A DNA stretch of 49,138 nt from Candidatus Izemoplasma sp. (GCA_029939945.1 JAOZRX010000009.1:1-49138), one strand, 5' to 3'. Positions 7,405-45,193 are shown, counted from the stretch's first letter. Translations and numbers: made by a program. The notes: a model not told the origin generated them from the letters alone.

Positions 7405-8067
7405 ATGAAAGTGCATATTATTTCGTGTAAAGTTTATGAAGAAGGAATCAATAATATTATAAAGCAATATTCTTTAGATTATTCTAAGGAATTTTTTGAG
7501 ATACATAAGCATAATGAACCGAATCTTTTAAGATTAGAGTTACAAGAAAGAATTGATAAAATCAATGATGTTGATAAAATTATTATCTTATACGGTATAT
7601 GTGGTAATTCAATTTGTGGGTTAAAAGCAAATAATGTTGAACTGTATATTCCTAAAATTCATGATTGTTCCGCCATGCTTATTGGTGGAAAAGAATTATA
7701 TAAAGAGCATTTTGGACATCGTCCATCTCAAGCTTATTCTGCTTATAGCTATATGAAAGAAAGCTATGATGATCAGTTAGACTATTTACTTAAAAAATAT
7801 GATGAAGAAACAGCATATTACTTATATGAAACAATGTATCCTAAAAGTTCAAGTCTAGTGTATATTGCTTTAAATCATCCAAAGGATAAAGAAAATATTG
7901 AAGCATATAAGAGAAATTACGAAACAGTTGAAGTTATTAAAGGAAGCATGAATTTCTTAGAGCGAGTTATCTTGTTTAATGGAAGCGATGAAGAAGTATT
8001 AAAAGTTGAACCACATAAAAATGTAAAATGTGTTTACGATTTTGAAGAGGTGATCAAGGCAGAATGA
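7405..8067 (+). CDS. DUF1638 family protein
   Basis: KVHIISCKVYEEG, ILYGICGNSICGL and IPKIHDCSAMLIG fit the DUF1638 family, which neighbours corrinoid methyltransferase genes; ATG at 7405 is preceded by aaggtg. Confidence 0.75.
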   Translation: MKVHIISCKVYEEGINNIIKQYSLDYSKEFFEIHKHNEPNLLRLELQERIDKINDVDKIIILYGICGNSICGLKANNVELYIPKIHDCSAMLIGGKELYKEHFGHRPSQAYSAYSYMKESYDDQLDYLLKKYDEETAYYLYETMYPKSSSLVYIALNHPKDKENIEAYKRNYETVEVIKGSMNFLERVILFNGSDEEVLKVEPHKNVKCVYDFEEVIKAE

Positions 8068-9617
8068 AATATCAAATTGAAAAAGGAAAAAGTATAAAAG
8101 ATTTTTTAATTAAAGAAGATAATAATGTTGAGTTTTTATGTAATGGGAATGGTATTTGTGGTAAATGCTTAATTAAAGTTACTAGGGGAGATTTAGTTCC
8201 TAACGATTACGATAGACAATTTATTTGTGAAGAAGATTTAGAGAATGGAATTAGATTATCATGCAAACACGAAACAACAGAAGATATCGAGTTTGAATGG
8301 TTGAATTCACTTAATAGTGCCTACATTGAAGCTAAAACAATTGTAAAATATGAGAATAATTTCAATATTAAAGAAATTGATAATAGATTTATTTTATTAG
8401 AAAAAGACGAAGAGATATTTTCAAATGACCTAGGTTACTTTGTTGGAATAGCTGTTGATATTGGTACAACAACTATTGCTTTAAGAGTAATTGACTTAGT
8501 AAAAGACAAAGTAATTGGCGAGAAGAACATATTAAATTCACAAAAGAAATATGGTGCTGATGTTATCTCGAGAATTAAATTCGCATCAGAAGGCGGATTA
8601 AATGAACTAAAGAATTTAGTAGTTAACGATATTGAGAAAAGTATCTTATCAGTCTTTAAGAAGAAATCTTTATCACTAGATTCATTAGTGAGAATAACAA
8701 TTTCAGGGAATAATGTAATGAATCATATCTTTTTAGGAGTAAATCCAAAGAAAATGGGACAAATCCCATTTGAACCAGAGTTTATTAACCCTGTTATAAA
8801 AGATGCAAATAGTATTTTTAACTTTAAATCTAAAGCTATTGTTAGTGTAATAGGAAGTTTCACAAGTTTTGTTGGTGGAGATATAATGAGTGGTATTTTA
8901 TCACTTGGAGAATTGCCAGAAAAGTGGTTCTTGTTACTTGATCTTGGAACTAATGGAGAAATAGTTTTAGGAAACTCTAAACAACTACTTGTAACTTCAA
9001 CTGCAGTAGGACCAGCTTTAGAAGGTGGTAATATTAGTAGTGGTATTGGTTGTGTTGAGGGTGCAATAAGTAATATCAAGATAAATGGAAGTAAAATTGA
9101 ATACAAGACAATAAACAACTTAGAACCTATCGGAATTTGCGGTAGTGGAATAATTGATTTGAGCGCAGAATTAGTTGGTAATAAACTAATTATTCCTAAT
9201 GGAAAATTCACTGAAAAGAAAGATATTGAAATATATAAAAATATTTCATTTACTCAAAAAGATATTAGACAAATCCAATATGCAAAGAGTGCTGTAAGAA
9301 GTGGAATTGAAATACTTGTTAAAGTTGCAAAAATAGAATATGAGGATATTGATAATGTTTACTTAAGTGGTGGACTAGGTAATAATGCAAATATTCAAAA
9401 TGTTATTAAACTAGGAATGATTCCATCAGTATTAAAAGATAGAAGTATTCCTAGTGGGAATACATCTCTCGCTGGTGCAATTCTTAATCTATTTGCTTTA
9501 AAAGATACGACAGAAAAGATGTTACATTTTCAAAGTATTGCCAAAGAAATTAATTTAGGAGAAAGAAAAGATTTTAATGAAATCTATGTCTCAAATTTTG
9601 ATTTAGAAGAAAGTTAA
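8064..9617 (+). CDS. ferredoxin/ASKHA-domain protein (DUF4445-like), reductive activator of corrinoid proteins
   Basis: N-terminal 2Fe-2S cysteines CNGNGICGKC...C followed by ASKHA motifs VGIAVDIGTTTIALRVID, LLLDLGTNGEIVLG and VYLSGGLGNN. Confidence 0.88.
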   Translation: MKYQIEKGKSIKDFLIKEDNNVEFLCNGNGICGKCLIKVTRGDLVPNDYDRQFICEEDLENGIRLSCKHETTEDIEFEWLNSLNSAYIEAKTIVKYENNFNIKEIDNRFILLEKDEEIFSNDLGYFVGIAVDIGTTTIALRVIDLVKDKVIGEKNILNSQKKYGADVISRIKFASEGGLNELKNLVVNDIEKSILSVFKKKSLSLDSLVRITISGNNVMNHIFLGVNPKKMGQIPFEPEFINPVIKDANSIFNFKSKAIVSVIGSFTSFVGGDIMSGILSLGELPEKWFLLLDLGTNGEIVLGNSKQLLVTSTAVGPALEGGNISSGIGCVEGAISNIKINGSKIEYKTINNLEPIGICGSGIIDLSAELVGNKLIIPNGKFTEKKDIEIYKNISFTQKDIRQIQYAKSAVRSGIEILVKVAKIEYEDIDNVYLSGGLGNNANIQNVIKLGMIPSVLKDRSIPSGNTSLAGAILNLFALKDTTEKMLHFQSIAKEINLGERKDFNEIYVSNFDLEES

Positions 9618-10438
9618 TGATTATAAGCAACCCTGATTTGGCAATAATCACTGAAACGTATTTTAACTTTGATTCAAAAAGTCAAAAAGATTATAGTATT
9701 TGCAATGAATTTATACATACATCAATAAATGTTCAGCACTTTTTAACATATTCAACACCAACAATCGGGTACTTAGTTTTCTATATAACTAAAGGTCAAG
9801 GTATGGTGTATTCTGAATATGAATTAAAGGGACTTAAGAAGAATGATTTATGTATTATTGACTTATCTGAGCCGTTTTATATATCGAGTAATGATTGGGA
9901 GTATATTGCTACTCACATAAGTGGAGACTCAGTAAAGGCAATCATAAATGATTTTTATGAAAATAAACTCGTTAGTATTGAAGATTCGTTTTATATTGAA
10001 AGACAATTTTATCTAATAAACCATTTTATGAAGAAAAAGGATGTTATAATGGTATCTTCATCAGTTCAGAAACTGTTGTCAGATATCAAGAAAAATGCTT
10101 GTTTTAAAGAAGAAAATGAGAATTATACTACACCAATAAATCAAGCAGTTAACTATATAGAAGAGAACTTCAAAGAAAAAGTAACAATTGATGAATTAGC
10201 TAACCATGTTGGATTTTCTAAATTCTACTTTATTAGATTATTCCAAAGTAAAACAAATAAAACACCATACAAGTATCTAATGGATGTTAGATTAGATTAT
10301 TCTAAGTTTTTACTTAAAATATCAAATCTAAGTATTAAAGAAATCGCAGTAAGTAGTGGTTTTACAAGTGAAATGAATTTTTATCAAAACTTTATCAAAG
10401 ATGAAGGTATATCTCCAAGTAGATATAGAAAATTATAA
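9617..10438 (+). CDS. AraC family transcriptional regulator
   Basis: C-terminal double HTH: AVNYIEENFKEKVTIDELANHVGFSKFYFIRLFQSKTNKTPYKYLMDVRLD...GFTSEMNFYQNFIKDEGISPSRYR. Confidence 0.92.
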   Translation: MIISNPDLAIITETYFNFDSKSQKDYSICNEFIHTSINVQHFLTYSTPTIGYLVFYITKGQGMVYSEYELKGLKKNDLCIIDLSEPFYISSNDWEYIATHISGDSVKAIINDFYENKLVSIEDSFYIERQFYLINHFMKKKDVIMVSSSVQKLLSDIKKNACFKEENENYTTPINQAVNYIEENFKEKVTIDELANHVGFSKFYFIRLFQSKTNKTPYKYLMDVRLDYSKFLLKISNLSIKEIAVSSGFTSEMNFYQNFIKDEGISPSRYRKL

Positions 10439-10457: not shown

Positions 10458-11816
10458 ATGGGTAAAGAATTAGTATTTAAGACATTGAAACATGAAGAAA
10501 CAAGTCGACCTCCATGGGTGCCATTTGCGGGAATACATGCAGGTAAGTTGCTAGGATATAATGCAATCGAATTATTGACAGATGAAGATAAACTAGTTGA
10601 ATCATTACTAGAAGTTAACAAACTATATAAACCAGACGGACAACCAGTTTTATTTGATTTACAAATTGAAGCTGAAATTCTTGGTTGTGATTTATTTTGG
10701 TCTTCTATGACTCCTCCAACAGTAAAAACTCATCCACTTGAAATAGATAAGACGATACCTTCTTTAGATAAAATTCCTACTAAAGAATCAGGGAGATTAC
10801 CAATGATTCTTTCAGCAATGCGACGAATGAAAAAGGAGGTTGGGGATACAACAGCACTATATGGATTAGTTGTTGGACCATTTACTTTAGCTTCACATTT
10901 ACGAGGTACTGATATCTTTATGGATATGGTTGATGAACCTGAGTATGTAAAAGAACTACTTGAATACTGTGCATTAGTTACAAAAAAAGTTTCATTGTTA
11001 TATATTGAAGCTGGAATGGATGTAATCGCAGTAGTGGATCCACTTGTGTCAATGATTTCACCAAGACATTTTAGGAAGTTTATGAGTGAACCTTTTTCAG
11101 ATATATTTGCATATTTGAGAAAAGAAAATACTTTCTCTTCATTCTTTGTTTGTGGAGATGCAACTAAAAATATTCCTGGAATGTGTTTAACAAATCCTGA
11201 CTCTATTTCAGTTGATGAAAATATTGATCTAGCAGCTGCAAAACTTGTAACAGATGAACATAATATTACTTTAGGTGGAAATATTCCTCTAACAACAGTA
11301 ATGTTACATGGTTCACAACAAGATAATATGAAATTTGTTATTGAGATGATTGAATCACTTGATAATCTTAAGAACTTTATAGCTGCACCAGGATGTGATA
11401 TGCCTTATGATGTACCGATTGAGAATGCAATAGGTGCTGCACAAGCAATACTAGAATTTGAACAAACAAAAGAGTTGATTAAAAATTACGAAGCAACAGA
11501 TTTCTCTAAATTTGAAGTTGAATTACCAGACTATGAAAACCTAGAAAGACCGTTTGTTGAAACGTTTACTCTTGATTCGGATAGTTGCGCTGCATGTACA
11601 TATATGTGGGGAGTGTCACAAGACATGAAAGAACATTTTGGTGATAAAATTGATGTTATTGAATATAAATATACTGAACTTAAAAATATTGCAAGGTGTA
11701 TTAAGATTGGGGTAGCAAATTTACCATCACTTTATATTAATGGTAAATTAAAATATTCATCCTTAATTCCTAGTCCTGAAAAGCTTATTGCTGATATTGA
11801 GAAATTATTAGATTAA
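10458..11816 (+). CDS. UroD-fold methyltransferase (MtaA/CmuA-like) with C-terminal thioredoxin-like domain
   Basis: UroD-family features (LYGLVVGPFTLASHLRG, IEAGMDVIAVVDP, GGNIPLTT) and a C-terminal ~85 aa with CAAC active-site-like motif and LPSLYINGKL cis-Pro-like segment. Confidence 0.8.
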   Translation: MGKELVFKTLKHEETSRPPWVPFAGIHAGKLLGYNAIELLTDEDKLVESLLEVNKLYKPDGQPVLFDLQIEAEILGCDLFWSSMTPPTVKTHPLEIDKTIPSLDKIPTKESGRLPMILSAMRRMKKEVGDTTALYGLVVGPFTLASHLRGTDIFMDMVDEPEYVKELLEYCALVTKKVSLLYIEAGMDVIAVVDPLVSMISPRHFRKFMSEPFSDIFAYLRKENTFSSFFVCGDATKNIPGMCLTNPDSISVDENIDLAAAKLVTDEHNITLGGNIPLTTVMLHGSQQDNMKFVIEMIESLDNLKNFIAAPGCDMPYDVPIENAIGAAQAILEFEQTKELIKNYEATDFSKFEVELPDYENLERPFVETFTLDSDSCAACTYMWGVSQDMKEHFGDKIDVIEYKYTELKNIARCIKIGVANLPSLYINGKLKYSSLIPSPEKLIADIEKLLD

Positions 11817-12736
11817 TGAAAAAGATAGACTTATATTTTATAGTTGGATTTCTAGGTAGTGGTAAAACAACTTTCTTAAAACATTTTTTACAAGATTTTC
11901 AAGATAAAAAAATTGCAGTTGTGATTAATGATTTTGGTAAAACAGATATTGATGCAAAACTACTTGCAGATAAAATTGAATCATTAAAAGAGATACATGA
12001 TGGATCAGTATTTTGTTCATGTAAAAGTGATCAGTTTGTACAGGGAGTAACTGAACTTTCAAAAGAAGATGTTGATATTATTATTGTTGAAAGTTCAGGA
12101 TTTGCTAATCCAAATACTCTGATTAATGTTGTAGATTTGATAAAAAAATTAGCTCATAATCCAATGGAATTTAAAGGTACAATTGGGATTGTAGATGCAA
12201 GTAAAGTTGCAAAACTTATTAATGTAGCAGCAATGATTGAACTTCAAATCTATTATAGTGATTTAATATTAATCAATAAAATAGATTTAGTTGATAAATT
12301 TAATTTATCTGTTGTTAATGACTTAGTTACTCATATTAATAATGAGGCAGCAATTCACTTAGTAACTAATGCTTATGTAAAACGAGTTGAAATTGAGAGT
12401 ATGAAGATGTCAATTAAACCTGGGATTGAGAAACAATACGTTAACCCTAGTTCACAAAAATTAATGTTATCTCTCGATGAGATTGACAGCAAAGAAGATT
12501 TTGAAATTTTCTTACTAGCAATTGAGAAGGATGTACTAAGAATCAAAGGTTTTATTACTTTTGATAATCAATGTTACTTTGTTGAAGCAATAGATGGTGA
12601 GATTAGGTATCAGAAACATCCGAATATTAATCAAGAACCAGTGATTGTGATTTTAGCAATTATGAAAAGATTTTTAGAAAGATATATTATTCAAAAATGG
12701 GAAAAGTATATTGATTCACCAATAGACATTCTATAA
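11816..12736 (+). CDS. CobW/P47K family G3E GTPase
   Basis: GFLGSGKTTFLKHFL Walker A, VINDFG, VESSGFANP and NKIDLVD; start overlaps the UroD stop. Confidence 0.88.
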   Translation: MKKIDLYFIVGFLGSGKTTFLKHFLQDFQDKKIAVVINDFGKTDIDAKLLADKIESLKEIHDGSVFCSCKSDQFVQGVTELSKEDVDIIIVESSGFANPNTLINVVDLIKKLAHNPMEFKGTIGIVDASKVAKLINVAAMIELQIYYSDLILINKIDLVDKFNLSVVNDLVTHINNEAAIHLVTNAYVKRVEIESMKMSIKPGIEKQYVNPSSQKLMLSLDEIDSKEDFEIFLLAIEKDVLRIKGFITFDNQCYFVEAIDGEIRYQKHPNINQEPVIVILAIMKRFLERYIIQKWEKYIDSPIDIL

Positions 12737-12780: not shown

Positions 12781-13743
12781 CTATATTTTCTTTAATTTAT
12801 TTAGTTTTTCATCACTTAAGACAATATCAACATTCTTTAAACCTAATATACAAGCCCCAATAGATGGATCAAGAAGACTTTCATGTATTATAAATGTTTT
12901 ATCGATTTTTAGAACTTTTTCAATAAATTTCTTTTTAAAAATTGTATTTGCATTTCCAAGTGAACCAATAATTGCAAGTTCTTTATTAGATAAGTTTATA
13001 GAGTTATTGACAGCCTGAACCATTAGTGCTAAATCATCTGTTGCTTCCTCAACTATTTTTAATGCATGAATATCTCCCATATCAGCATGTAAGGTTACTA
13101 GTTTTGATAGAGATGCAGTGAGAGTACGGTCTTCATAAAACTCATCAAACATTTTAACTGCTTCACTAAAAGTATGAACACTTAATTCTTTCTTAACTTC
13201 TTCAATAAATAGCGAAGTGGGGTAACGATTATCAAGAACTTTGGCTAGAGTTTTTAGGGTTTTTCTTCCTAAATCATAACTACTACCTGGATCTCCTTCT
13301 TTATAAGAATATCCACCAGATCTAAAACTATTTTCTTCTTCATCTATTCCAAAAGCTACACTACCTGTTCCTATAACTATTGCAATGCTTGGTTTACCCA
13401 TAGTTCCACCAGCAAAGGCGTTATATATATCATTCTCACTATGAATAACTGTTTCTCTTGTACAGTTTTTAATTTTATGAAGGTAAGAATTTACTAATGA
13501 CTTGTCTTCTTCAGATGAAATACCACCAAGTCCTGCAAACACAGAACTAATACGAATATCTTCTATATCATTTTCTCTTAAAATCTGTTGTAATCCATCT
13601 TGAATATTTTTAAGCGAAATTTCTGAACTTACTGTATCAATACTTGAAGGTCCACTTATTGCACTACCAATATAAACTCCTAAATCAGTAATTAAAGAAA
13701 CTTTTGTTTTAGTGCCACCACCATCAACTCCGAGAATATACAT
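12781..13743 (-). CDS. BadF/BadG/BcrA/BcrD-type ATPase, N-acetylglucosamine kinase-like sugar kinase
   Basis: MYILGVDGGGTKTKVSLI, VIGTGSVAFG and GSLGNA motifs. Confidence 0.85.
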   Translation of the reverse strand: MYILGVDGGGTKTKVSLITDLGVYIGSAISGPSSIDTVSSEISLKNIQDGLQQILRENDIEDIRISSVFAGLGGISSEEDKSLVNSYLHKIKNCTRETVIHSENDIYNAFAGGTMGKPSIAIVIGTGSVAFGIDEEENSFRSGGYSYKEGDPGSSYDLGRKTLKTLAKVLDNRYPTSLFIEEVKKELSVHTFSEAVKMFDEFYEDRTLTASLSKLVTLHADMGDIHALKIVEEATDDLALMVQAVNNSINLSNKELAIIGSLGNANTIFKKKFIEKVLKIDKTFIIHESLLDPSIGACILGLKNVDIVLSDEKLNKLKKI

Positions 13744-14036: not shown

Positions 14037-14885
14037 ATCTTTCAATCAGAAAATGTAGAAATTGTTTTATTTAGCGAATGCTACCCAACAACCTTTGCGA
14101 AAAAATCACTATTTTATTACAAAAAATTCTATCAACTAAAATTTAATAATGAGTATTCACTTAACTACACAAATAATGATAGTTATTATTTTTATTATGT
14201 TAATAGTGGAAGTATATTTATAACTTTAGATAAAACTATATTTACACTAACTAAAAGTGATTTACTAGTTGTAAAAAAAGGAACAAATGTAACATTATCA
14301 TCAAGTAATGCAAATATATATGTTGTTGAGTTTGACGGTAAGCTTACACCTGACTATATTAATGAAATCGTTGATACTAATAAGAGTGGAGTATCAATGG
14401 CTGATTTTTCAGGAATTGTTATGTTCTTTGTTAAGTTAAAAGAATTAAGTCTTTATGAAGTTATAAACGATGTTTATGTGTCACTTAACTTAGAAGCAAT
14501 ATTAGTTGAAATATATACTAAGAAGTTTTATGGGAATGATGAAGTAAAACCAAGAGAAAATGCTATAATACAGGCCTTATTTTATATTGAACAAAATATA
14601 AGTAATAAGATAACTTTAGAAGGTTTATGTAAATTTGTAGGATATAGTGTTTTCCATTTTTCAAGATTATTTAAAAAAGAAGTTGGGATTCCACCATATG
14701 AATATATTATTAAGTTTAGACTAGATTTAGCTAAACATTTACTTATAACAACTAACTTAGCAGTTAGAGAGATAGCTAAGCAATGTGGTTATACAAGTGA
14801 AGTTAATTTTTATAATGTATTTAAAAAGAATGTGCATGTAACTCCCAAACAATTTAGATTATTGAATATAAACAAAGGAGAATAG
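14037..14885 (+). CDS. AraC family transcriptional regulator (N-terminally extended relative to the ORF track)
   Basis: C-terminal HTH (ISNKITLEGLCKFVGYSVFHFSRLFKKEVGIPPYEYI...GYTSEVNFYNVFKKNVHVTPKQFR). The frame stays open upstream of the ATG at 14397 to a stop at 14025, encoding a cupin-like N-terminus; RBS gaggtg precedes an ATC codon at 14037. Start is inferred. Confidence 0.75.
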   Translation: MFQSENVEIVLFSECYPTTFAKKSLFYYKKFYQLKFNNEYSLNYTNNDSYYFYYVNSGSIFITLDKTIFTLTKSDLLVVKKGTNVTLSSSNANIYVVEFDGKLTPDYINEIVDTNKSGVSMADFSGIVMFFVKLKELSLYEVINDVYVSLNLEAILVEIYTKKFYGNDEVKPRENAIIQALFYIEQNISNKITLEGLCKFVGYSVFHFSRLFKKEVGIPPYEYIIKFRLDLAKHLLITTNLAVREIAKQCGYTSEVNFYNVFKKNVHVTPKQFRLLNINKGE

Positions 14886-19494: not shown

Positions 19495-19529
19495 AAAAGT
19501 TTGGATAGGTTTTCTATCTAAACTTTTTA
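19495..19529. terminator. bidirectional terminator
   Basis: AAAAAGTTTGGATAG-GTTTT-CTATCTAAACTTTTT hairpin between convergent genes. Confidence 0.8.
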
Positions 19530-24231: not shown

Positions 24232-24243
24232 GAGGAAATTATT

Positions 24244-24876: not shown

Positions 24877-24888
24877 GAGGTAACAAAT

Positions 24889-28487: not shown

Positions 28488-28490
28488 ATA

Positions 28491-29597: not shown

Positions 29598-29609
29598 AGA
29601 GGTGTAGAT

Positions 29610-32477: not shown

Positions 32478-32479
32478 TA

Positions 32480-33220: not shown

Positions 33221-33225
33221 TTAAA

Positions 33226-35627: not shown

Positions 35628-37472
35628 ATGAAAAATCATGAATTGCTCATTAGTGCTGAAGTTAAGGCATTAACTGAAAAAGAGATCGATTTAGGGAAAA
35701 TATTGCCACTCGGTGAAATTAAGTGCAAACATATTAGCAAAGTAATGTATAAGTCTAGTAAAAATTGGAAAAACTTAACTAATTTGGTAAGTTTTGAAAA
35801 TAAAACCGCAAGATATATAAAAGTTACAGTTAAAGAAGACACTTCTTTTGAATTATATGTTGGATTAGGGTATTACGCAGAGGAAGATGATAAATGGACT
35901 AGTGCGTTTAATCGTAAGAGTGGATGGTCTGGTGGAGATGGAATCTTCTCGTTCAATATTAAAAATGGAAATGATTCATTCAATCAGAAGAATGCAAAGA
36001 CATTATTTGTATTTGGTGATACATTAGTTGGAAAATCTGATCCTATATCACATAAAAGACTATCACCATTATTGATGCCTAATAATTCACTAGCGTATCT
36101 TAAAGGAAACGGAACTAATAATCTAGATGTAGATTTTAGAATTAATACAGATAAATATGATACAGTGAAGAGTTTCTTTGAACCAAATAACTGTTCGATG
36201 TATAACGGAACATTGCCGTCACATTTAGTTAAATACGACTTATCAAAAGAATATTCACCATATTTAAGTGGGTATAATCCTAAAAAAGTAGAATTAGTAT
36301 TTGATTTATTAAGTGATTACTATATAGAATACGTAGATTTCTATAATTACTTCCTAGAAGAATATTCAGGATTTGATTTAGAAAATAGAGGAATCTATAA
36401 ATTTGAGTTATATAGCACTAATAAAATTGGAGTTGACAAGAAAATTGGTAATTTTGAATTAGAAAAAGCAACAAGCATTGATTCTTTCACAAGAATACCA
36501 GTTGATTATAAAACAAGATATATCAAAATAGTAGTGAACCCAGTTCAAGGTATTGGTAACCACTATGATAAAGATGATTTAGTTGAAGTAATGTTTGGAC
36601 TTAATAAAGTTAAAATATTTGGAGAAGAATCATACTTCAAGGAAGTTCAAGTAACAGCTACTTCAGTTTTATCAAAAGAAAAAGAAGTTACTTGGTTTTG
36701 GTTACAAGATGGAGTAGTAATTGATAAGAATTTATTCTTCTTACCATTACTTGTTGGACCAGATTTAACTCAACCAGAAGGACTACAGTTCACAGTCAAA
36801 GGTATTTCGTTAATAAAAGTACCAATTGTTAAGGGTGAACTAGATATCGAAGCTCAATCACAAAAAGAAACACCACTCTGTTATGAAGAAAATGGTGTAC
36901 AGTGGTTGTTTGGAAACGCAATAATGGCAAATACTAAACAATCTGGGTCGCAAAATCCAGATGGATATGTATATATTTATGGATACACTTCAAACCTAGG
37001 CCTTAGACAACTACGAATTGCTCGAGTTCTAGCCGAGCATTTTGAATTGATAAATGAATGGGAATTCTTTAGTGATTCAAAGTGGGTAAAAGAACTGTCT
37101 AAGGCCACTCCTATTTTGGAACATACCTCATGTGAAATGAGTGTATCACCAATTACAAGTGGAGAAAATATTGGTAAATACTTAGCAGTGTTTCAATATG
37201 ATACAAATTCTAATATTATTGCTTACAGCATAGGCGAAAGACCAGAAGGTCCATTCACAGAACCAAGAGATGTTTTTAGCACAGAAGAAGTAATAAGTAA
37301 TTTAGGAAGAACAGCTTATGCTTATAATGCTAAAGCTCATCCGCATCTATCTAAAAGCAATGAAATATTAGTTACTTATAACGTTAATACTTACGATATG
37401 GTACACAACACAGACGACTGTGAAGTGTATCGACCAAGATTCATTAAAATTATTGATACTTCGGAGGAATAA
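35628..37472 (+). CDS. DUF4185-like protein, no signal peptide
   Basis: KSGWSGGDGIFSFNIKNGN...LFVFGDTLVGKSDPIS and YNAKAHPHLSKSNEILVTYNVNTYD...YRPRFIKIID, paralogous to 17316. Confidence 0.6.
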   Translation: MKNHELLISAEVKALTEKEIDLGKILPLGEIKCKHISKVMYKSSKNWKNLTNLVSFENKTARYIKVTVKEDTSFELYVGLGYYAEEDDKWTSAFNRKSGWSGGDGIFSFNIKNGNDSFNQKNAKTLFVFGDTLVGKSDPISHKRLSPLLMPNNSLAYLKGNGTNNLDVDFRINTDKYDTVKSFFEPNNCSMYNGTLPSHLVKYDLSKEYSPYLSGYNPKKVELVFDLLSDYYIEYVDFYNYFLEEYSGFDLENRGIYKFELYSTNKIGVDKKIGNFELEKATSIDSFTRIPVDYKTRYIKIVVNPVQGIGNHYDKDDLVEVMFGLNKVKIFGEESYFKEVQVTATSVLSKEKEVTWFWLQDGVVIDKNLFFLPLLVGPDLTQPEGLQFTVKGISLIKVPIVKGELDIEAQSQKETPLCYEENGVQWLFGNAIMANTKQSGSQNPDGYVYIYGYTSNLGLRQLRIARVLAEHFELINEWEFFSDSKWVKELSKATPILEHTSCEMSVSPITSGENIGKYLAVFQYDTNSNIIAYSIGERPEGPFTEPRDVFSTEEVISNLGRTAYAYNAKAHPHLSKSNEILVTYNVNTYDMVHNTDDCEVYRPRFIKIIDTSEE

Positions 37473-37474
37473 CT

Positions 37475-38728
37475 ATGAAACATACTACAGAGTTCCTTAA
37501 CGGAAATACGGTAATTAGTTTTGATAAAATTTATCCTATTGATTCAATTGTCTTTAATAAAGAAGTAATTGAATTAGAATGGGCAATTAATAAAAAAGTA
37601 TACAATCAGTCTAATTATCATATTTTCAATAATGTTGTTACATTTCATAACATTTACTTAAGAACTTTGAAAATTAAAGGTCAAATAGAAGTTGTTAATG
37701 TAACAATAGGAAAAGGATATGTAGTTGAAGAAGCATCTAAAGAAACTGATGTTTTCAGAAGAAACAGCCATTGGGCTGGAGCTGATGGAGTGTTTCAACA
37801 CAGAATAGGGAATAAACTTCACTGGTATTTTAGTGATACATTCGTTGGAGACGTTGATCCAGTTACTAGATTACGTAAAGAAGGATTTGTGATGGTAAAT
37901 AATACTGTTGCTGTATCAGAAATTGGTAGTGAATTTGATTTAACATTTAAAGTTAATGAAAAAGATGGAAAATTCAAAGCATTTTACGAGCCTACTGGAA
38001 AAGGACACTTGTGGATTCAAGATGGTATTTATTTAGATGGAGCTTTATATATAACATGTTTGAATATCTCTAACAGTGATAATCCAAAAGTTTGGTTTAA
38101 TGTTGATGGAACTTCTTTACTAAAAGTACCTAGTCATGAAGATGACTTGTTATACGATGAATATTCAATCTTAGAGAGTAATTTCTATGTTAAAGATGAA
38201 GAAGTAACATATATCTTTGGAAATGCAATCTTAAATGATTTAGATAGAACTGGATATGTTTATGTGTTTGGTTATGGGAATCAAAAGGAAAGACGTGGAG
38301 TTATGTCTAGAACTAAAGATTTCATAAATCCTAATTCATATGAATATTTAAGTAATAATGGATGGACTAAAGAGCCTCATGATTTATTTGAAGTAGCTCC
38401 TGATTTTGCTTGTGAACTAAAGGTTATTTATGATGATGGATTATACAAAATGGCCTATACAAAGGGAAGTATGAGTCCAACAATTATGATGGGTGAAACA
38501 GACAGTTTAGAAAAAGGATTTAAAGATTTATCATTAATTTATCAATGTCCTGAACCAAAATTAAAAAAAGGACAAATAAGTTATAATTCTAAACTACAGA
38601 AATTTGATAATATTGATGATTTATATATTAGTTATAATGTAAATACATTGAATAACGACGATCATGTCGATGCAGAAATTTATTATCCAAGATGGATAAA
38701 ATTACGGAAAGTCAGTGATGTTTTATGA
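37475..38728 (+). CDS. DUF4185-like protein (short paralogue), no signal peptide
   Basis: NSHWAGADGVFQHRIGNKLHWYFSDTFVGDVDPVTR...FVMVNNTVAV and LYISYNVNTLNN...YYPRWIKLRK. Confidence 0.6.
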   Translation: MKHTTEFLNGNTVISFDKIYPIDSIVFNKEVIELEWAINKKVYNQSNYHIFNNVVTFHNIYLRTLKIKGQIEVVNVTIGKGYVVEEASKETDVFRRNSHWAGADGVFQHRIGNKLHWYFSDTFVGDVDPVTRLRKEGFVMVNNTVAVSEIGSEFDLTFKVNEKDGKFKAFYEPTGKGHLWIQDGIYLDGALYITCLNISNSDNPKVWFNVDGTSLLKVPSHEDDLLYDEYSILESNFYVKDEEVTYIFGNAILNDLDRTGYVYVFGYGNQKERRGVMSRTKDFINPNSYEYLSNNGWTKEPHDLFEVAPDFACELKVIYDDGLYKMAYTKGSMSPTIMMGETDSLEKGFKDLSLIYQCPEPKLKKGQISYNSKLQKFDNIDDLYISYNVNTLNNDDHVDAEIYYPRWIKLRKVSDVL

Positions 38729-39609
38729 AAAGAGTAGAAGTTGATCAAGTAATTAAACAACCAAGATTTACCAAAAAACAAAGAATGATAATTAAGGAAG
38801 CTATAATGCATGTGATTTTAATTACTATAGCTACATTCTTTATCTTCCCATTCCTTTGGATGGTAATGACGGCCTTGAAAACTCCTCAAGAGTTACTTGC
38901 TGGGACAGATGTTTTCTTCCCACAAGATCCTCAATGGGATAATTTTAAATTAGCAGTAACTGCAGTTCCATTCTTTTTATACTTAAAGAATAGTTTAATC
39001 TTAGTTATTTTCGCAGTAACAGGAACGTTAATCTCGGCAACACTTACAGCCTATGCCTTTGCGAAACTGCAATGGCCAGGTAGAGATACTTTCTTTATTG
39101 TAATGCTTGCAACTATGATGATACCTATTCAAGTTATATTAATACCTACATACATCATGTATTCAAAAATAGGATGGTTAGGGACAAGATTACCATTGAC
39201 AGTACCTTATTTCTTTGGTGGTGGATCTGCATTCTTTATATTTATGTTAAGACAATTTTTCAAAGGAACTCCAAAAGAATTGACAGAAAGCGCAATTGTT
39301 GATGGAGCAACACATTTTAAGATTTTCCTTAAAATAATGTTGCCTTTATCAAAACCAGCTTTAATAACTGTTGCACTATTTACATTCATGATGGTTTGGA
39401 ATGATTACTTCGGTCCACTTATTTACTTAAGTGACCCAGATATGATGACTTTAGCTTTAGGTTTACGAGGGTTCCAAACTCAGTTTAGTGGAAGATTTGA
39501 TTTAATGATGGCAGCATCACTTCTAGTAATGACTCCAACATTAATTATTTTCTTCTTAGCACAAAAGCAATTCATCGAGGGAATTACTTTTTCAGGAATA
39601 AAAGGATAA
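38725..39609 (+). CDS. carbohydrate ABC transporter permease (MalG/UgpE-type)
   Basis: Six TM segments and the EAA-loop variant ELTESAIVDGATHFKIFLKIMLPLSKPAL. Confidence 0.93.
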   Translation: MKRVEVDQVIKQPRFTKKQRMIIKEAIMHVILITIATFFIFPFLWMVMTALKTPQELLAGTDVFFPQDPQWDNFKLAVTAVPFFLYLKNSLILVIFAVTGTLISATLTAYAFAKLQWPGRDTFFIVMLATMMIPIQVILIPTYIMYSKIGWLGTRLPLTVPYFFGGGSAFFIFMLRQFFKGTPKELTESAIVDGATHFKIFLKIMLPLSKPALITVALFTFMMVWNDYFGPLIYLSDPDMMTLALGLRGFQTQFSGRFDLMMAASLLVMTPTLIIFFLAQKQFIEGITFSGIKG

Positions 39610-39622
39610 AGGAGAGAAGATT

Positions 39623-40939
39623 ATGAAAAAAGTTTTATTATTAGTTTTAATGTTTACTAGTGTTTTCGTATTAACAGCTTGTAACAAAGATGAGGCCGCA
39701 GAAGGTAAAATTGAAATTATTTACTGGCACCAGTCACCTGTAGCAAGTGATAGTTTCTCTGCAACAAAGAACCTCATTACTGAATTTAATGAGTCTCAAG
39801 ATGTTTATTATGTTAGAGGAATCGGAATTAACTTCTGGGATTATTGGGATAAAATAAATATCGCAATAGCCTCTAAAACAGCTCCAGATATTGGATTGCA
39901 CACAATTGATAACGTTCAATTGAGAGCGAGTGGTGGAGTGTTACATAACTTATCTGATTTAATTGCTGGAGATGTAGCTGCTGGAATTGATGAATTAGAT
40001 ATGACTGTATTTTATGAAAACCAAATAAAATACACAACTTACGATGGTAGTTTATATGCTTTACCATTTTCAGCAAACACAAGAGTTTTATATTACAATC
40101 TTGATATGTTTGAAGCTGCAGGATTAACTGAAGCAGATGTTCCTACTACTTGGGAAGAACTTGGCGAAATAGCTCCATTATTAAATATTACTGATGGTGA
40201 CGAAATTGTTCAAATTGGATTCGATCCGACTTACGGACAAGGGACTTACATGGGATACTTATGGCAAGCAGGTCTTGATTTTTTTGATGAAAATCAACAA
40301 CCTACATTAAATACTCAAAAACATATTGATATCCTTGATTGGATGGTATCGTTTAATGATGATACATTTACAAGAACTCAACGTAATGCATTTGGTGAAG
40401 CAAATCAAATGTTAGGAATTGATCCATTCGCAGCAGGACGTGTTGCAATGATGATTTCTACTGATGCACTTTATGAAACAATGGAAACTTATGGTTCAAC
40501 AATTAACTATGGAGTTTCAATGATTCCTGTTCCTGAAGATGGAGGGATTAGAGTTAGTTGGGGAAGTGGATTTAGTTTAGAATTGTTTGATAACGGAGAC
40601 GACGATCCTGTAAAATTAGAAGGTGCTTGGCAATTCATGAAATTTATTATGAGTAAAGACACTCAAATAGCATTAGCTGACGCACTAGGTTGGATTATGG
40701 GTAACAAAGATGCAATGGAAGTTGTTGTTGCAGGTAACCCAATTAAAATGAAATTACTAGAAGAAGTACAATATGCAACTGACAAAGTTTATATTGATTA
40801 TGCTCCAAACTGGCATGCAGCAGACTGGCAAACATATTATGACGAAGTACTAGAAGGTACAATGACACCAGCTGAAACCTTAGCTGCAGCACGAGCAAAT
40901 TACTTACAGAAACAAGAAAATTACGAAGATATAAACTAA
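39623..40939 (+). CDS. ABC transporter sugar-binding lipoprotein
   Basis: Lipobox LLVLMFTSVFVLTAC, family 1 extracellular SBP features (IIYWHQSP, YALPFSANTRVLYYNLDMFEAAGL). Confidence 0.93.
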   Translation: MKKVLLLVLMFTSVFVLTACNKDEAAEGKIEIIYWHQSPVASDSFSATKNLITEFNESQDVYYVRGIGINFWDYWDKINIAIASKTAPDIGLHTIDNVQLRASGGVLHNLSDLIAGDVAAGIDELDMTVFYENQIKYTTYDGSLYALPFSANTRVLYYNLDMFEAAGLTEADVPTTWEELGEIAPLLNITDGDEIVQIGFDPTYGQGTYMGYLWQAGLDFFDENQQPTLNTQKHIDILDWMVSFNDDTFTRTQRNAFGEANQMLGIDPFAAGRVAMMISTDALYETMETYGSTINYGVSMIPVPEDGGIRVSWGSGFSLELFDNGDDDPVKLEGAWQFMKFIMSKDTQIALADALGWIMGNKDAMEVVVAGNPIKMKLLEEVQYATDKVYIDYAPNWHAADWQTYYDEVLEGTMTPAETLAAARANYLQKQENYEDIN

Positions 40940-40969
40940 ACTACAAAATATAATTAACAAGGTGATTTT

Positions 40970-41920
40970 ATGAAAGAGAACAAAAGTGCAATTCTAAAAA
41001 AAGGTAAAAATAAAAACGGATTAAAAGGATTAAAATCAGAAGAAAAAAGATTAGGGTATATGTTTGCTTCACCATGGCTTATAGGTCTATTCGTATTTGG
41101 TCTTTTCCCTTTAAGTATGTCTTTATTTCTTAGTTTTACAAGATATGATATGGTTTCTAGTCCTGTTTTTGTAGGAGTTACTAACTATCGTATCTTATTA
41201 ACTAATGATAACTTGTTTTGGAAGAGCTTATACAACACGATTTACCATGTAGTATTATCAGTTCCATTAGGAATTACAGTCGGTGTTGCTCTAGCTTTAC
41301 TATTAAACAGCAAAGTAAGAGGAATGGGTATTTATCGTACGTTATACTATTTACCAAATGTAACTAGTATCGTAGCAATGTCATTACTTTGGCTATGGTT
41401 ATTTCAGCCTAGTTTTGGTATAATAAATCAAATGCTTGAACCGATTTATGATTTATTTAAAATGGAACCACTAACCTGGTACAAAAGTGCCGACTTATCA
41501 AAACTTACTTTGATAATCATGGGACTATGGAGTGCTGGGGGATCAATGGTAATATACTTAGCACAAATGCAAGATATACCTGGCGAGCTTTACGAAGCCG
41601 CGGATATTGATGGAGCAAATGGACTCCAAAAAATAATTAGAATTACACTTCCGTTAATGACCCCTTCAATCTTCTTTAATTTCATAATGGGGTTAATAGG
41701 AGGATTCCAAGTATTTGCAACAGCTTATATTATGACAAATGGTGGACCTTCTAAATCAACATATTACTACTCTTATTATCTATTTGATAAAATGATTTAT
41801 GACAATGCAATGGGAAGTGCCAGTGCAATGGCATGGATGCTTTTGGTTATCACATTAGTAATAACAATGTTTGCACTAATGTTAAACAAATATGTTTTCT
41901 ATTTAGGAGAACAACAATAA
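40970..41920 (+). CDS. carbohydrate ABC transporter permease (MalF/UgpA-type)
   Basis: TM segments and EAA loop ELYEAADIDGANGLQKIIRITLPLMTPSIFF. Confidence 0.93.
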   Translation: MKENKSAILKKGKNKNGLKGLKSEEKRLGYMFASPWLIGLFVFGLFPLSMSLFLSFTRYDMVSSPVFVGVTNYRILLTNDNLFWKSLYNTIYHVVLSVPLGITVGVALALLLNSKVRGMGIYRTLYYLPNVTSIVAMSLLWLWLFQPSFGIINQMLEPIYDLFKMEPLTWYKSADLSKLTLIIMGLWSAGGSMVIYLAQMQDIPGELYEAADIDGANGLQKIIRITLPLMTPSIFFNFIMGLIGGFQVFATAYIMTNGGPSKSTYYYSYYLFDKMIYDNAMGSASAMAWMLLVITLVITMFALMLNKYVFYLGEQQ

Positions 41921-41938: not shown

Positions 41939-42760
41939 ATGAAAAAATTATTATCATTATTAGTAGTTGTTGCTTTAGTACTAACACTATCTGGATGCTG
42001 GTCTGGGGAAATTGCAGTAGACACAGTAATCAATGAAGATGGTTCTGGTACTAGAACAATTGTATTAGCAGTTATGGATGACACATTATCTACAGATCCT
42101 ATTACTAATCCTGACGATCCTGATGGAACTGAAGGAAAAGGTGCAGTAATTAATAATCAACATATTACTGGTGGACTTCCTGAAATTCAAACTTGGCTTG
42201 AAGCTAATTCTCCAACTTGGATGACAGTTGAAGAAATGGAAACTGATGGAATCTACAGAAACTTTACTTTAACTTATGATTTCACTGATTTCGATGATTT
42301 CTTAGCTAAATACGAAGAATTAGTAGACTTATCTCCAAATCTTGCTTGGACAGACTTTGCAGAAGATGAACAACCTACATTAGTATGCGATGGTACTTAT
42401 AAAGTTAATTGTACATTCAATGAATCAATTGATTTAGTTAACGCATCTCTTGACTGGGCAGTTGACGGAATTTGGAATGACATTTACGACGAAGCTACTT
42501 TAGCTGGTTGGGTTGGTAAAGGGGATATCTCTGTACTTGCTAACTATACAGTTACTTTAGGTGATCAAACAGTTGAAGAATTACAATTCTATGATCCAGA
42601 TGCAATTGATGGAGAAGGAACTGGAGCTACAGTTTACCCTCAAGGTAACTGGGAAGTTGCAGCTGAATTCACTGGTGTTACAGCGATTACATTAACAGTA
42701 CTTGGTGCTGCAGTTGTAGTTGGTGGAGCAGTATTTGCAGTAATTAAATTTAAAAAATAA
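41939..42760 (+). CDS. lipoprotein with C-terminal transmembrane anchor (LppM-like?)
   Basis: Lipobox VLTLSGC, VDTVINEDGSGTRTIVL, and C-terminal TM ITLTVLGAAVVVGGAVFAVIKFKK; family tentative. Confidence 0.55.
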   Translation: MKKLLSLLVVVALVLTLSGCWSGEIAVDTVINEDGSGTRTIVLAVMDDTLSTDPITNPDDPDGTEGKGAVINNQHITGGLPEIQTWLEANSPTWMTVEEMETDGIYRNFTLTYDFTDFDDFLAKYEELVDLSPNLAWTDFAEDEQPTLVCDGTYKVNCTFNESIDLVNASLDWAVDGIWNDIYDEATLAGWVGKGDISVLANYTVTLGDQTVEELQFYDPDAIDGEGTGATVYPQGNWEVAAEFTGVTAITLTVLGAAVVVGGAVFAVIKFKK

Positions 42761-42828
42761 TTATAGATTTAACTAACAAGAAAAGATAGCACTAAATACT
42801 AGTGCTATCTTTAACAATGTAAAAAAGG

Positions 42829-43461
42829 ATGATAAATATGAAGGATAATATTATTAAGGATAGCTTTATCCTTTTAACAGATTTAGTTTTGCTAAACTTC
42901 TTATGGCTAGTAGTTTCAGGACTCGGTATTTTTTTAAGTGCTGGTGCTGCAACAACGGCTATGTTTAGTGTGTCTTTTAAACTTGTACAAAGTAAAAAAC
43001 ACACTTACATTGTTAAGGATTTTTTCGATAGCTTTCTAAAGAATTTAGTACCAAGCACAATAGCTTGGGGACTTATTTTACTAATTTCATTCCCACTTTA
43101 TTTGATATATAATTACTCCATTAATACTGGTAACACTGTTTTAATGGTTTCAGTCTTTATTGCTGCATTTGAAGTATTAATATTCACAGTCTATATATTT
43201 CCTATAATCGCCAGATTTGAAGGTAAGACAGTTACTTTAATGAAAAACGCTATCTTACTTGGACATATTCATTTCTTTACTACATTCAAAGTATTGGGAT
43301 CTTTAGCTTTGGTATTGTTGCTAGTTGTTAGAGTGAATTCTTTCTTCTTATTAGTAATGGTAGGAATATATGCAGGACTTTCAACTTTTCACTTAAAACA
43401 AATATTCAATATATATATTCAAAAAATAGTAGGTGAAGATAATGAGCTACCTGACTTTTAA
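42829..43461 (+). CDS. YesL-like (DUF624) membrane protein
   Basis: ILLTDLVLLNFLWLVVSGLGIFLSAGAATTAMFSV and several TM segments. Confidence 0.8.
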   Translation: MINMKDNIIKDSFILLTDLVLLNFLWLVVSGLGIFLSAGAATTAMFSVSFKLVQSKKHTYIVKDFFDSFLKNLVPSTIAWGLILLISFPLYLIYNYSINTGNTVLMVSVFIAAFEVLIFTVYIFPIIARFEGKTVTLMKNAILLGHIHFFTTFKVLGSLALVLLLVVRVNSFFLLVMVGIYAGLSTFHLKQIFNIYIQKIVGEDNELPDF

Positions 43462-45193
43462 ATCGAAATACAACAAATTCCCTAAAATAAAAGTAACGGA
43501 TGAAAATTCTGTTGTTTTAGGATATAAAGATATTATAAATACAATATTTAAAGGTATGAAAACAGATAAAAAGGTGTTGGTTCTAGAATGTTTTCCTGGA
43601 GTTCGATACAGTGAACTGATGGAAAATCTAATTTCACCTTTAAATCCAAACTTAATTATCAAATCAGATGATCTTGCATTGGATAAAGATGATATCACAA
43701 AGAAGATATACTCTAACCTAACAAAAGACCGTGTATTTGGGGTTATTTCAGAGATGGAAATTAAAGATCTATATATTGAAAAGAAAGTAATAGAGGCAAG
43801 AAAAGCTATTAATAACGCAAAAGGATTAGTAGTAATTTATGGATTTGGAGCAAGTCACATTACATTAGGCGATACATTAGTCTATTTCGATTTGGCTAGA
43901 TGGGAAATTCAACAAAGATTTAGATCAGGTGAATTAACTAACTGGAAAATGGACAACTATGATCTTGATATTTTAAGAAAATATAAAAGAGCCTATTTTG
44001 TAGAATGGAGAATTGCTGATAGAATTAAGAAGTCTTTGTTTGAAGAACTAGATTACTATATTGATACAAATGGAGTTAATAATCCCAAAATGATAACTGG
44101 TAAGGACTTTTTAAAGGGACTTATTCAATCAGTCAAAACACCATTCAGATTAGTACCATATTTCGATCCTGGTATTTGGGGTGGTCAGTGGATGAAAGAA
44201 GTATGCGATTTAGATAAAAGCAAAGATAACTTTGCTTGGAGTTTTGATGGAGTTCCTGAAGAGAATTCAGTCTACATGGAGTATGGCAATTCGTATATTG
44301 AGATGCCTGCATTAAATATTGTTTTTTATCAGCCAATTGAACTTCTAGGGAAAAACGTATTTGATAGATTCGGAAAAGAATTTCCAATCAGATTTGATTT
44401 TCTTGATACAGTAAAAGGAGGAAACCTTTCACTTCAGGTTCATCCGTTAACTCCATATATAAAGAAGCAATTTGGTATGAAATATACTCAAGATGAGAGT
44501 TATTATATATTACACGCTGAAAAAGGTTCATCAGTCTTTCTTGGAGTAAAAGAGAATGTTGATAAAAGTGAGATGTTTAAAGATTTGAGAAAAGCTAAAA
44601 AAGGGAACTACCGATTCCCTCATGAAAAATATATTAATGAATTTCCTGCGAAAACGCATGATCATTTCTTAATACCAGCAGGTACAATTCATTGCTCAGG
44701 ATCAGAAACAATGGTTTTAGAAATAAGCGCAACTCCATATATATTTACATTCAAATTATGGGATTGGGGACGTCTTGGACTTGATGGAATACCTCGCCCA
44801 GTTCATCTGGACCATGGTGAAAAAGTAATCCAATGGAATAGAACAACTAAGTGGGTAAAAGACAACTTAGTTGACCAGTCTGTTCTTCTTGAAAAAAATG
44901 ATAATTTTACTGAAGAAAGAACTGGTCTTCATGAACTCGAATTCATTGAAACAAGAAGACATTTCTTCACAGGAATAGTAAAACATAAAGCAAATGATTC
45001 TGTCCATGTATTGAATTTAATACATGGACAAGAAGCAATCATTAAGAGTATCAACAACTCGTTTGAGCCATATATAGTGCATTATGCTGAAACATTCATT
45101 ATCCCAGCTAATGTTGGAAATTATACTATTGAACCACATGGACCAAGTGTTGGGAAAAAAATTGGGACAATAAAAGCTTATATTAGAAATTAA
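43442..45193 (+). CDS. long phosphomannose isomerase-like protein with N-terminal P-loop/kinase-like extension
   Basis: C-terminal PMI motifs LSLQVHPLTPYIKKQFG, IPAGTIHCSG and PRPVHLDHG; ~200-aa N-terminal extension; RBS aggtga supports ATG at 43442. Confidence 0.75.
   Translation: MSYLTFKSKYNKFPKIKVTDENSVVLGYKDIINTIFKGMKTDKKVLVLECFPGVRYSELMENLISPLNPNLIIKSDDLALDKDDITKKIYSNLTKDRVFGVISEMEIKDLYIEKKVIEARKAINNAKGLVVIYGFGASHITLGDTLVYFDLARWEIQQRFRSGELTNWKMDNYDLDILRKYKRAYFVEWRIADRIKKSLFEELDYYIDTNGVNNPKMITGKDFLKGLIQSVKTPFRLVPYFDPGIWGGQWMKEVCDLDKSKDNFAWSFDGVPEENSVYMEYGNSYIEMPALNIVFYQPIELLGKNVFDRFGKEFPIRFDFLDTVKGGNLSLQVHPLTPYIKKQFGMKYTQDESYYILHAEKGSSVFLGVKENVDKSEMFKDLRKAKKGNYRFPHEKYINEFPAKTHDHFLIPAGTIHCSGSETMVLEISATPYIFTFKLWDWGRLGLDGIPRPVHLDHGEKVIQWNRTTKWVKDNLVDQSVLLEKNDNFTEERTGLHELEFIETRRHFFTGIVKHKANDSVHVLNLIHGQEAIIKSINNSFEPYIVHYAETFIIPANVGNYTIEPHGPSVGKKIGTIKAYIRN

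Follow-up and report, generated by a model that had tools for sequence, protein, structure and literature searches.

Gene content of the locus

The window (the whole stretch of 49,138 nucleotides from Candidatus Izemoplasma sp. that was analysed) had been read, from its sequence only, as holding a candidate corrinoid-dependent pathway for the demethylation of O-methylated mannose glycans. All of the genes named in that sequence-only reading are present, and the locus consists of three things: a core glycan locus and two further blocks, module A and module B. The core comprises ManA, a GlcNAc-kinase-like BadF protein, an AraC regulator, GH38N and DUF4185/GH183 proteins, an ABC importer and a PMI-like protein.

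6260..7288, − strand: mannose-6-phosphate isomerase ManA (1qwr, E 4e-71); left border of module A
12781..13743, − strand: BadF/NAGK-type sugar kinase (PF01869, 4e-28), matching the MurNAc/GlcNAc kinase 8zo3 (E 4e-27); right border of module A
14037..14885, + strand: AraC regulator of the core locus (frame open from 14037), 71% identical over 282 aa to its homolog in L188
14888..17329, + strand: GH38N-type glycosidase a (PF01074, 5e-15), 56–64% in five relatives
17316..19487, + strand: DUF4185 (GH183-like) lipoprotein with F5/8C domain (PF13810, 1.6e-13), kept in relatives; left border of module B
35628..38728, + strand: two more DUF4185 proteins (PF13810, 1.3e-16 and 6e-7, the second below the cut-off); right border of module B
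38725..41920, + strand: sugar ABC importer (permease, binding lipoprotein, permease), 55–81% in relatives
41939..45193, + strand: lipoprotein with no assigned function, DUF624 protein (this order kept in relatives) and long PMI-like protein (43433)

The glycosidases of the core locus fall into the GH38 alpha-mannosidase family and, putatively, the DUF4185/GH183 family of endo-D-arabinanases (PMC10115798). Unlike typical members, the DUF4185 proteins here are divergent, with the domain above the cut-off in two of the three, and two of the three GH38 proteins of the window have the N-domain only. Degradation of D-arabinan as the main role of the DUF4185 proteins was considered and set aside; it is possible, yet no D-arabinose genes were seen in the window. 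The long phosphomannose isomerase of the sequence-only reading (43433) proved to be a weak match to ManA, the clear ManA lying instead at 6260.

Module A occupies 7.4–12.7 kb.

7396..8067, + strand: DUF1638 protein (PF07796, 1.8e-25)
8064..9617, + strand: RACo-type ATP-dependent corrinoid activator, 2Fe-2S ferredoxin plus ASKHA (PF14574, 1e-58; PF17651, 4e-44; PF00111, 2e-5)
9617..10438, + strand: AraC regulator of module A (PF00165, PF12833)
10458..11816, + strand: UroD1, an MtaA/CmuA-like URO-D protein fused to a thioredoxin-like CAAC domain (PF01208, 3.5e-53)
11816..12736, + strand: CobW-type GTPase (PF02492, 2e-40)

Module B occupies 19.5–35.5 kb, between two DUF4185 genes.

19514..20551, − strand: DUF4432 protein (PF14486, 4e-96)
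20508..21266, − strand: DeoR regulator, divergent from the operon (PF00455, 7e-51)
21423..22265, + strand: class II ketose-bisphosphate aldolase (PF01116, 1.8e-94)
22262..23137, + strand: flavin-reductase-like protein (PF01613, 2.5e-10), possibly an electron donor
23137..24231, + strand: UroD2, candidate substrate-specific O-demethylase (MT1; URO-D, 1.8e-14)
24244..24876, + strand: MtaC/MtgC-type corrinoid protein (B12-binding, 5e-23; B12-binding_2, 5e-22)
24889..26106, + strand: UroD3, candidate MT1 (URO-D, 1e-22)
26094..27050, + strand: PfkB sugar kinase 1, ribokinase/fructokinase-like (PF00294, 7e-56)
27047..27583, + strand: D-lyxose/D-mannose isomerase (7nzo, E 2e-63; 2y0o, E 2e-55)
27588..28487, + strand: PfkB sugar kinase 2, 1-phosphofructokinase-like (TIGR03168, 275 bits, cut-off 216)
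28491..29597, + strand: UroD4, divergent URO-D protein, candidate MT1 (URO-D, 7e-6; 25.7 bits, cut-off 23.9)
29610..32477, + strand: full-length GH38 alpha-mannosidase (four GH38 domains, N-domain 3.5e-45)
32480..33220, + strand: alpha/beta hydrolase (PF12146, 3e-14)
33217..35505, + strand: GH38N-type glycosidase b (PF01074, 6e-11), last gene of the module

The 12 genes from 21423 to 35505 form a packed operon, as the sequence-only reading had held; its 11 internal junctions range from −13 to +12 bp, and 122 bp separate it from the next gene. Three URO-D genes and the corrinoid protein gene are interleaved in it with those for the D-lyxose/mannose isomerase, for which the strong match to 7nzo bears out the earlier assignment, two PfkB kinases, the aldolase and two GH38 proteins. 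By family assignment the isomerase, the two kinases and the aldolase are predicted to be a closed mannose route. Some of the genes were qualified by the scan: UroD4 is a marginal URO-D protein, and of the three GH38 proteins 29610 alone has the N, middle and C domains, 14888 and 33217 having the N-domain alone (with its H-x-D kept). GH38N b is about 33% identical to other GH38N proteins, and no signal peptide was seen on the 29610 protein.

Modules A and B are additions to a conserved core

Five relatives belonging to the same family have the core glycan locus too, there without corrinoid genes. In all five, DUF4185_b follows directly after DUF4185_a, which is the module B site without module B. 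In one relative (G012/L188; ManA homolog 57%), the borders of module A, ManA and BadF, are direct neighbours. Module B is thus extra relative to five genomes and module A relative to one.

Corrinoid proteins and the URO-D metal sites

The corrinoid set is complete, and the profiles matched every member of it: the activator (8064), the corrinoid protein (24244), which carries the motifs DLHDIG (DxHxxG), SLLT and GGAP, and the four URO-D proteins (10458, 23137, 24889 and 28491). No further URO-D gene was found in the genome, which is 85% complete. A search of genome contigs with UroD3 alone gave no match. The AlphaFold model of UroD2 (pLDDT 81) has MtaA (4ay8/4ay7) and UROD as its best PDB folds; the structure prediction for UroD4 failed (pLDDT 35).

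Judged by site residues, the His-Cys-Cys site is found in none of the four. UroD2 and UroD3 keep H-x-C and lack the second Cys, and UroD4 has H-x-D and an Asp. By the published rule that separates O-type from S/Se-type URO-D methyltransferases (PMC10418091), the residues of these three match O-demethylases. By profile UroD1 comes nearest to the methylcobalamin:thiol methyltransferases MtaA, MtbA and CmuA (TIGR01463, E 3e-38), and like them it has both Cys residues. It differs from them in scoring below the cut-off (131.8 against 235.4 bits), in having Phe in place of the His ligand (84 of 84 homologs), in its fused CAAC domain and in its CobW partner. F-x-C, the further Cys and CAAC are found in all 84 homologs, and in 76 of 80 loci a UroD1 homolog has CobW as its neighbour. 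UroD1 is a candidate second methyltransferase to a thiol, with CobW possibly acting as its metal chaperone. Among the wider neighbours of the URO-D genes AraC/PocR regulators predominate and MtaB occurs in two cases, so that the UroD1–CobW pair also works for other corrinoid systems; acetogens, e.g. Acetobacterium bakii, have UroD1-type loci.

Signature first-step methyltransferases of other methyl systems had been named as what would count against a sugar substrate. Neither MtaB (PF12176) nor MTTB was matched among the 40 window proteins scanned (6260, outside the scan, is ManA), and MTTB was not found in the genome; a methanol, methylamine or glycine-betaine system was therefore rejected. 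The known acceptor enzymes (PF00809, the type that passes methyl to tetrahydrofolate, and PF02574) were likewise not found in the 85%-complete genome, nor was the pterin-binding second methyltransferase PF00809 found in the window.

As in the corrinoid O-demethylases known from acetogens and Methermicoccus (OdmABCD, VdmABCD, MtvABC, MtoABCD), the locus combines URO-D-fold MT1 candidates lacking the Cys-Cys thiol site with an MtaC-like protein carrying DxHxxG and a RACo-type activator. Unlike the OdmABCD/MtvABC type, it has three MT1 candidates in a mannose operon and no PF00809 methyltransferase to tetrahydrofolate was found; the second methyltransferase would be the MtaA–thioredoxin fusion. 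The CdmBCA chloromethane system of Acetobacterium dehalogenans also has a URO-D-type MT1 (zinc-independent), a corrinoid protein and an activator, but differs in its haloalkane substrate, folate MTII and lack of sugar genes (PMC13222342). Type 1 mlp gene clusters (Kountz and Balskus, PMC10418091) resemble the locus in having several MtaA-like URO-D proteins, a corrinoid protein and an activator in anaerobic Firmicutes, but have His-Cys-Cys sites (Mlp2/Mlp3) and methyl-S/Se substrates; UroD1 differs from the mlp proteins in its Phe for His and its thioredoxin-like domain.

URO-D relatives in other glycan loci

The sister of UroD2 (48% identity, tree support 100/100) is found in a clostridium (G476, locus L224), where a GH38 gene starts 153 bp after it (chance of a GH38 this close ~0.5%) and sugar ABC permeases and another URO-D gene lie upstream. 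This clostridium belongs to another class than the present genome. UroD3 homologs (66–70%) lie beside a corrinoid protein gene in G014 and G025, in both with a DeoR regulator, and in G025 UroD3 (62–66%) adjoins a galactitol-type PTS accompanied by transketolase/transaldolase; another homolog (60%) is inside a UxaA/UxaB operon (L233). UroD4 homologs (48–55%) occur in clostridial corrinoid clusters (L212/L214). URO-D relatives also accompany GH13 and a maltose-type importer (G037/G040, and again G686) and GH39/GH51/GH28/GH29 (L213), and three URO-D genes accompany GH130 and GH2 in Haloplasma (L027), GH38 and DUF4185 in G708, and GH78/apiosidase in Caldicoprobacter oshimai (L237); pectin-type and uronate loci are thus among them, and part of these examples (G476, G708, L213, L233 and L237) were picked by eye.

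Counting gave a different picture from that expected of a general linkage between methyltransferase and GH38 genes. UroD2 homologs were gathered by single-sequence searches. In a case-control count for the UroD2 clade (gene families fixed beforehand), glycosidases stood at 4 against 1 (p 0.11, not significant) and sugar ABC genes were not enriched. GH38–UroD2 pairs within 2 kb numbered 2 against 0.81 expected (p 0.19, near chance), and many members of the clade adjoin housekeeping genes. The general linkage is not borne out by these numbers. It is seen for the UroD2 sister beside GH38; in relatives the core GH38/DUF4185/importer set stands without corrinoid genes.

GH67, the family that releases 4-O-methylglucuronate, was also considered. 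An adjacent URO-D gene is rare (1 in 40 GH67 loci from 391 Clostridia); a URO-D gene 5.7 kb away and a corrinoid protein gene 1.7 kb away occur once each, and because of this count GH67 linkage was dropped as a general proof. An adjacent URO-D is found in L046.

A proposed corrinoid route for sugar O-demethylation

We give about an even chance to the reading that modules A and B jointly encode corrinoid-dependent removal of O-methyl groups from sugars, within a mannose-glycan locus, with mannose the likely methylated sugar. The importer would take up oligosaccharides from which cytosolic GH38 enzymes would free mannose, including O-methylated mannose. Methyl transfer onto Co(I) of the 24244 protein would be the task of UroD2, UroD3 and UroD4, each of which may deal with one methyl position or sugar form, and RACo would re-reduce Co(II) at the expense of ATP. 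UroD1, perhaps metallated by CobW and helped by its CAAC domain, would move the methyl group from cobalt to a thiol. Freed mannose would go to fructose (27047), fructose-1-phosphate (26094), fructose-1,6-bisphosphate (27588) and trioses (21423). There is a natural substrate: in Chlorella, oligomannose N-glycans end in 3-O-methyl and 3,6-di-O-methyl mannose, which makes them resistant to alpha-mannosidase (PMC6344472). For the original proposal of corrinoid demethylation of O-methyl mannose, the gene set, the O-type sites, the interleaving with mannose genes, the placing of two blocks in a mannose-glycan locus, the lack of MtaB and MTTB matches in the window and the sister beside GH38 speak in favour; the general GH38/URO-D link and a tetrahydrofolate acceptor did not bear it out, and the core genes of relatives do without corrinoid genes. 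Against it also stands that Co(I) attack is harder on an aliphatic than on a phenyl ether.

The donor could instead be a methoxylated aromatic or some other small methylated molecule, such as the aglycone of a glycoside that the cell takes up; the operon would then couple sugar and methyl use because one glycoside, or one plant material, supplies both. Those URO-D MT1s for ethers that have been characterised use phenyl methyl ethers as substrates (PMC10418091, PMC13222342), an aromatic donor would give the same metal-site pattern, and the acetogen loci with UroD1-type genes would suit it. We nevertheless regard this as unlikely, since the window has no aromatic-handling gene, no PF00809 second methyltransferase was found in the 85%-complete genome, and mannose genes alternate with the corrinoid genes, whose relatives recur in glycan and uronate loci.

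That the methylated compound is a sugar or sugar acid outside the mannose series (pentose, 6-deoxyhexose or uronate), the isomerase acting on D-lyxose and the DUF4185 proteins on D-arabinan-like chains, we consider decidedly unlikely. The isomerase family does also take D-lyxose, the DUF4185 family and the UxaA/UxaB and galactitol-type PTS neighbourhoods of UroD3 homologs point the same way, but GH38, ManA, the PMI-like protein, the mannose isomerase, 1-phosphofructokinase and aldolase indicate a mannose-series hexose, and D-arabinose genes were not seen in the window.

The existence of the glycan locus without the modules in relatives, and of many UroD2-clade and UroD1 genes outside glycan loci, would be explained if the modules were mobile blocks that arrived by chance, with an unrelated methyl donor and no joint function. 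This is improbable, as chance would have had to bring two complementary blocks into one locus, module B alternates URO-D and corrinoid genes with mannose genes, their ends overlapping or nearly touching, and the UroD2 sister adjoins GH38 in another class. Action on methyl-sulfur or methyl-selenium compounds, as in the type 1 mlp clusters with which the locus shares its superfamily, corrinoid protein and activator, is very improbable, for while UroD1 keeps two Cys the other three URO-D proteins lack the His-Cys-Cys site and the window has no sulfur or selenium genes.

Returning to sugar O-demethylation, two corrinoid gene blocks in a mannan locus suggest that anaerobes may be able to strip methyl groups from sugars without oxygen. 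A search of open-access papers found no corrinoid route for methyl sugars. The only removal route it found is oxidative, the P450 demethylation of 6-O-methyl-galactose, which likewise lies within a glycan utilisation locus but requires oxygen, yields formaldehyde and involves no corrinoid (PMC10033563). If true, the corrinoid route would fill a gap on the anaerobic handling of O-methyl sugars in guts and sediments, connect the degradation of polysaccharides with one-carbon metabolism and give large groups of so far unassigned URO-D proteins a possible function. More tentatively, and short of an even chance, corrinoid methyl transfer may be a general anaerobic O-demethylation route for polysaccharide sugars, with URO-D lineages in Bacilli and Clostridia serving glycan loci for mannans, alpha-glucans, pectin/RG-II-like chains and uronates, and the methyl group passing to a thiol through the MtaA–thioredoxin fusion. 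Sugars with O-methyl groups are found in the N-glycans of algae, mosses and molluscs and in porphyran, as well as in RG-II, the side chains of xylan and polysaccharides of mycobacteria; sugar methylation can block glycosidases.

Gene content and arrangement of the locus

All of the genes named in the sequence-only reading were found in the window by Pfam, and the tight packing it described is real (12 genes from 21423 to 35505, gaps −13 to +12 bp), with two assignments holding in part: UroD4 matches the URO-D methyltransferase fold family only marginally, and two of the GH38-type enzymes, GH38N_a and GH38N_b, match in the N-domain only. The features used below are:

7.4–12.7 kb, module A, including the RACo activator (8064), UroD1 (10458) and CobW
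14037–14885, regulator AraC2
14888, GH38N_a; 17316, DUF4185_a
19.5–35.5 kb, module B, including UroD2 (23137), corrinoid protein (24244), UroD3 (24889), isomerase (27047), UroD4 (28491), full GH38 (29610) and GH38N_b (33217)
35628–38728, region of DUF4185_b and DUF4185_c

The corrinoid protein carries the motifs DLHDIG and SLLT, the isomerase closely resembles solved D-lyxose/D-mannose isomerases, and the only URO-D genes found in the genome (1.72 Mb, 85%-complete) are the four in the window. By eye, no signal peptide was seen on GH38 or DUF4185_b/c, and DUF4185_a and the binding protein are lipoprotein-like. AraC2 was listed from 14397 yet is longer, its frame being open from 14037 and 71% identical to a relative's protein; no ATG, GTG or TTG was found there.

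Five other genomes from this bacterial family (loci L187, L188, L189, L191 and L193) have AraC2, GH38N_a, DUF4185_a, DUF4185_b, the ABC importer and the next genes in one continuous run, with no corrinoid gene among them; the DUF4185 genes there are ~130–210 bp apart, where the window has the 16-kb module B. At L188 BadF directly adjoins the ManA homolog; the window has the 5.3-kb module A separating the two. We read modules A and B as probable insertions into a core locus, the alternative being that the relatives lost both blocks. For UroD2 and UroD4 the other sampled genomes of the family contain no close homolog, and module B (G+C ~31%) is not distinct in base composition. One mannose-glycan locus, so labelled from ManA, the GlcNAc-kinase-like BadF and GH38N, holds at two points blocks with complementary parts of one methyl-transfer chemistry. 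In other Bacilli (L190 and L192) GH38N_a homologs occur with full GH38 and NagA/NagB-like genes (by eye), and at L190 also with PMI and GDSL homologs, which suggests N-glycan use by this GH38N family there.

Metal-site residues and a possible pathway

The UroD2 model has the URO-D fold (pLDDT 81), its best matches being the Methanosarcina mazei methyltransferase 4ay8/4ay7 and UROD. In this superfamily S-methyltransferases keep His-Cys-Cys and O-methyltransferases have lost one or both Cys (Kountz and Balskus, PMC10418091). The residues (METHYLTRANSFERASES) are H-S-C plus S-G-N in UroD2, H-S-C plus V-H-N in UroD3 and H-W-D plus D in UroD4, so by this rule, which has few characterised enzymes behind it, these three look O-type and UroD1 does not.

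In the pathway we propose, the glycan would be imported and cleaved by cytosolic GH38, UroD2/3/4 would demethylate the substrate and pass the methyl group to the corrinoid protein, RACo would reactivate the latter and UroD1 would hand the methyl group to a thiol; the sugar would run from mannose through fructose, fructose-1-phosphate and FBP to trioses. The methyl acceptor is the weakest step of this chain; PF00809 and PF02574 are absent from the genome, 15% of which may be missing. The demethylation proposed earlier, by a system working like a corrinoid O-demethylase, is the best available, if unproven, interpretation of the genes. Lacking the folate methyltransferase, the system falls short of full membership in the known acetogen type. 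The microbial route known for taking an O-methyl group off a sugar, P450 demethylation of 6-O-methyl-galactose, is oxidative (PMC10033563). O-methylated oligomannose is a plausible natural substrate: Chlorella vulgaris N-glycans end in 3-O-methyl and 3,6-di-O-methyl mannose and resisted jack bean alpha-mannosidase (PMC6344472), and moss and mollusc glycans are reported to be methylated as well (PMC8773788, PMC8699351).

URO-D genes in glycan loci of other genomes

Of 391 clostridial genomes, 40 carry a total of 67 UroD2-family members. UroD2 of the window pairs with full support with a protein of genome G476 (48% identity), where a full GH38 lies 153 bp after the gene and an MGH1-like glycosidase, sugar permeases and a UroD3-like gene lie upstream. 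Further examples, the whole set being selected in part by eye, are G708 (UroD2, GH38, two further URO-Ds and a DUF4185-GDSL protein), G037/G040 and, independently placed, G686 (GH13, importer and UroD2), Haloplasma L027 (three URO-Ds with GH130 and GH2), L213 (UroD2- and UroD3-like genes with GH39, GH51, GH28 and GH29), L233 (a UroD3 homolog, 60%, inside a UxaA/UxaB operon) and Caldicoprobacter L237 (three URO-Ds with GH78 and apiosidase). UroD4 relatives (48–55%) at L212 and L214 lie inside multi-URO-D corrinoid clusters. At L237:1-19901, from the cultured species Caldicoprobacter oshimai, a GH78 rhamnosidase, an apiosidase-type GH, PfkB and a homocysteine S-methyltransferase/pterin-binding protein stand beside the URO-Ds; GH78 and apiosidase together with three URO-Ds recall RG-II, in which 2-O-methyl sugars are present.

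A case-control comparison, its gene families fixed before the result was known, gave glycosidases 4 vs 1 (p 0.11) and no sugar-transporter excess; the GH38/URO-D linkage across genomes was not significant, GH38 lying ≤2 kb from UroD2-family genes twice against an expectation of 0.81 (p 0.19), and the genomes concerned are rich in GH38; and GH67 has no general link to URO-D. The sugar link is thus strong in the operon of the window and among its nearest relatives, suggestive in several other cases and missing from much of the family. At L046:16290-19427 a URO-D gene lies ~60 bp after a GH67 alpha-glucuronidase gene, and the locus also encodes UroD1, CobW and a corrinoid protein; the GH67 linkage, although rare, could concern 4-O-methylglucuronate.

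The UroD1-CobW family

In G014, of the same genus, the module A genes adjoin a short module B of DeoR, corrinoid protein and UroD3 (70%), and in G025 the same three lie next to a galactitol-type PTS and transketolase/transaldolase. Among the best 80 of 480 loci fetched with UroD1, CobW is present in 76, the corrinoid protein in 44 and RACo in 33. In UroD1 loci the genes next to the other URO-Ds chiefly encode AraC/PocR regulators, MtaB occurring twice, and UroD1-CobW is therefore a general partner of corrinoid systems, not in itself a sugar gene. F-x-C, a second Cys and CAAC are present in 84/84 aligned UroD1 proteins. This widespread family (window 10458-12736, L031-L110; 480 loci) is an MtaA-like URO-D with a fused CAAC thioredoxin-like domain, accompanied by CobW, in Clostridia, Anaerolineae and Halanaerobiales, and its zinc-ligand His is replaced by Phe. 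A BioB-like radical SAM protein is encoded nearby in 21 of the best 80 of 480 loci, often directly after CobW (L101:12305-13294 and 20 other loci). Four clostridial genomes of 2–4.5 Mb (G506, G523, G626 and G705) have ~40 first-look URO-D-type methyltransferase candidates.
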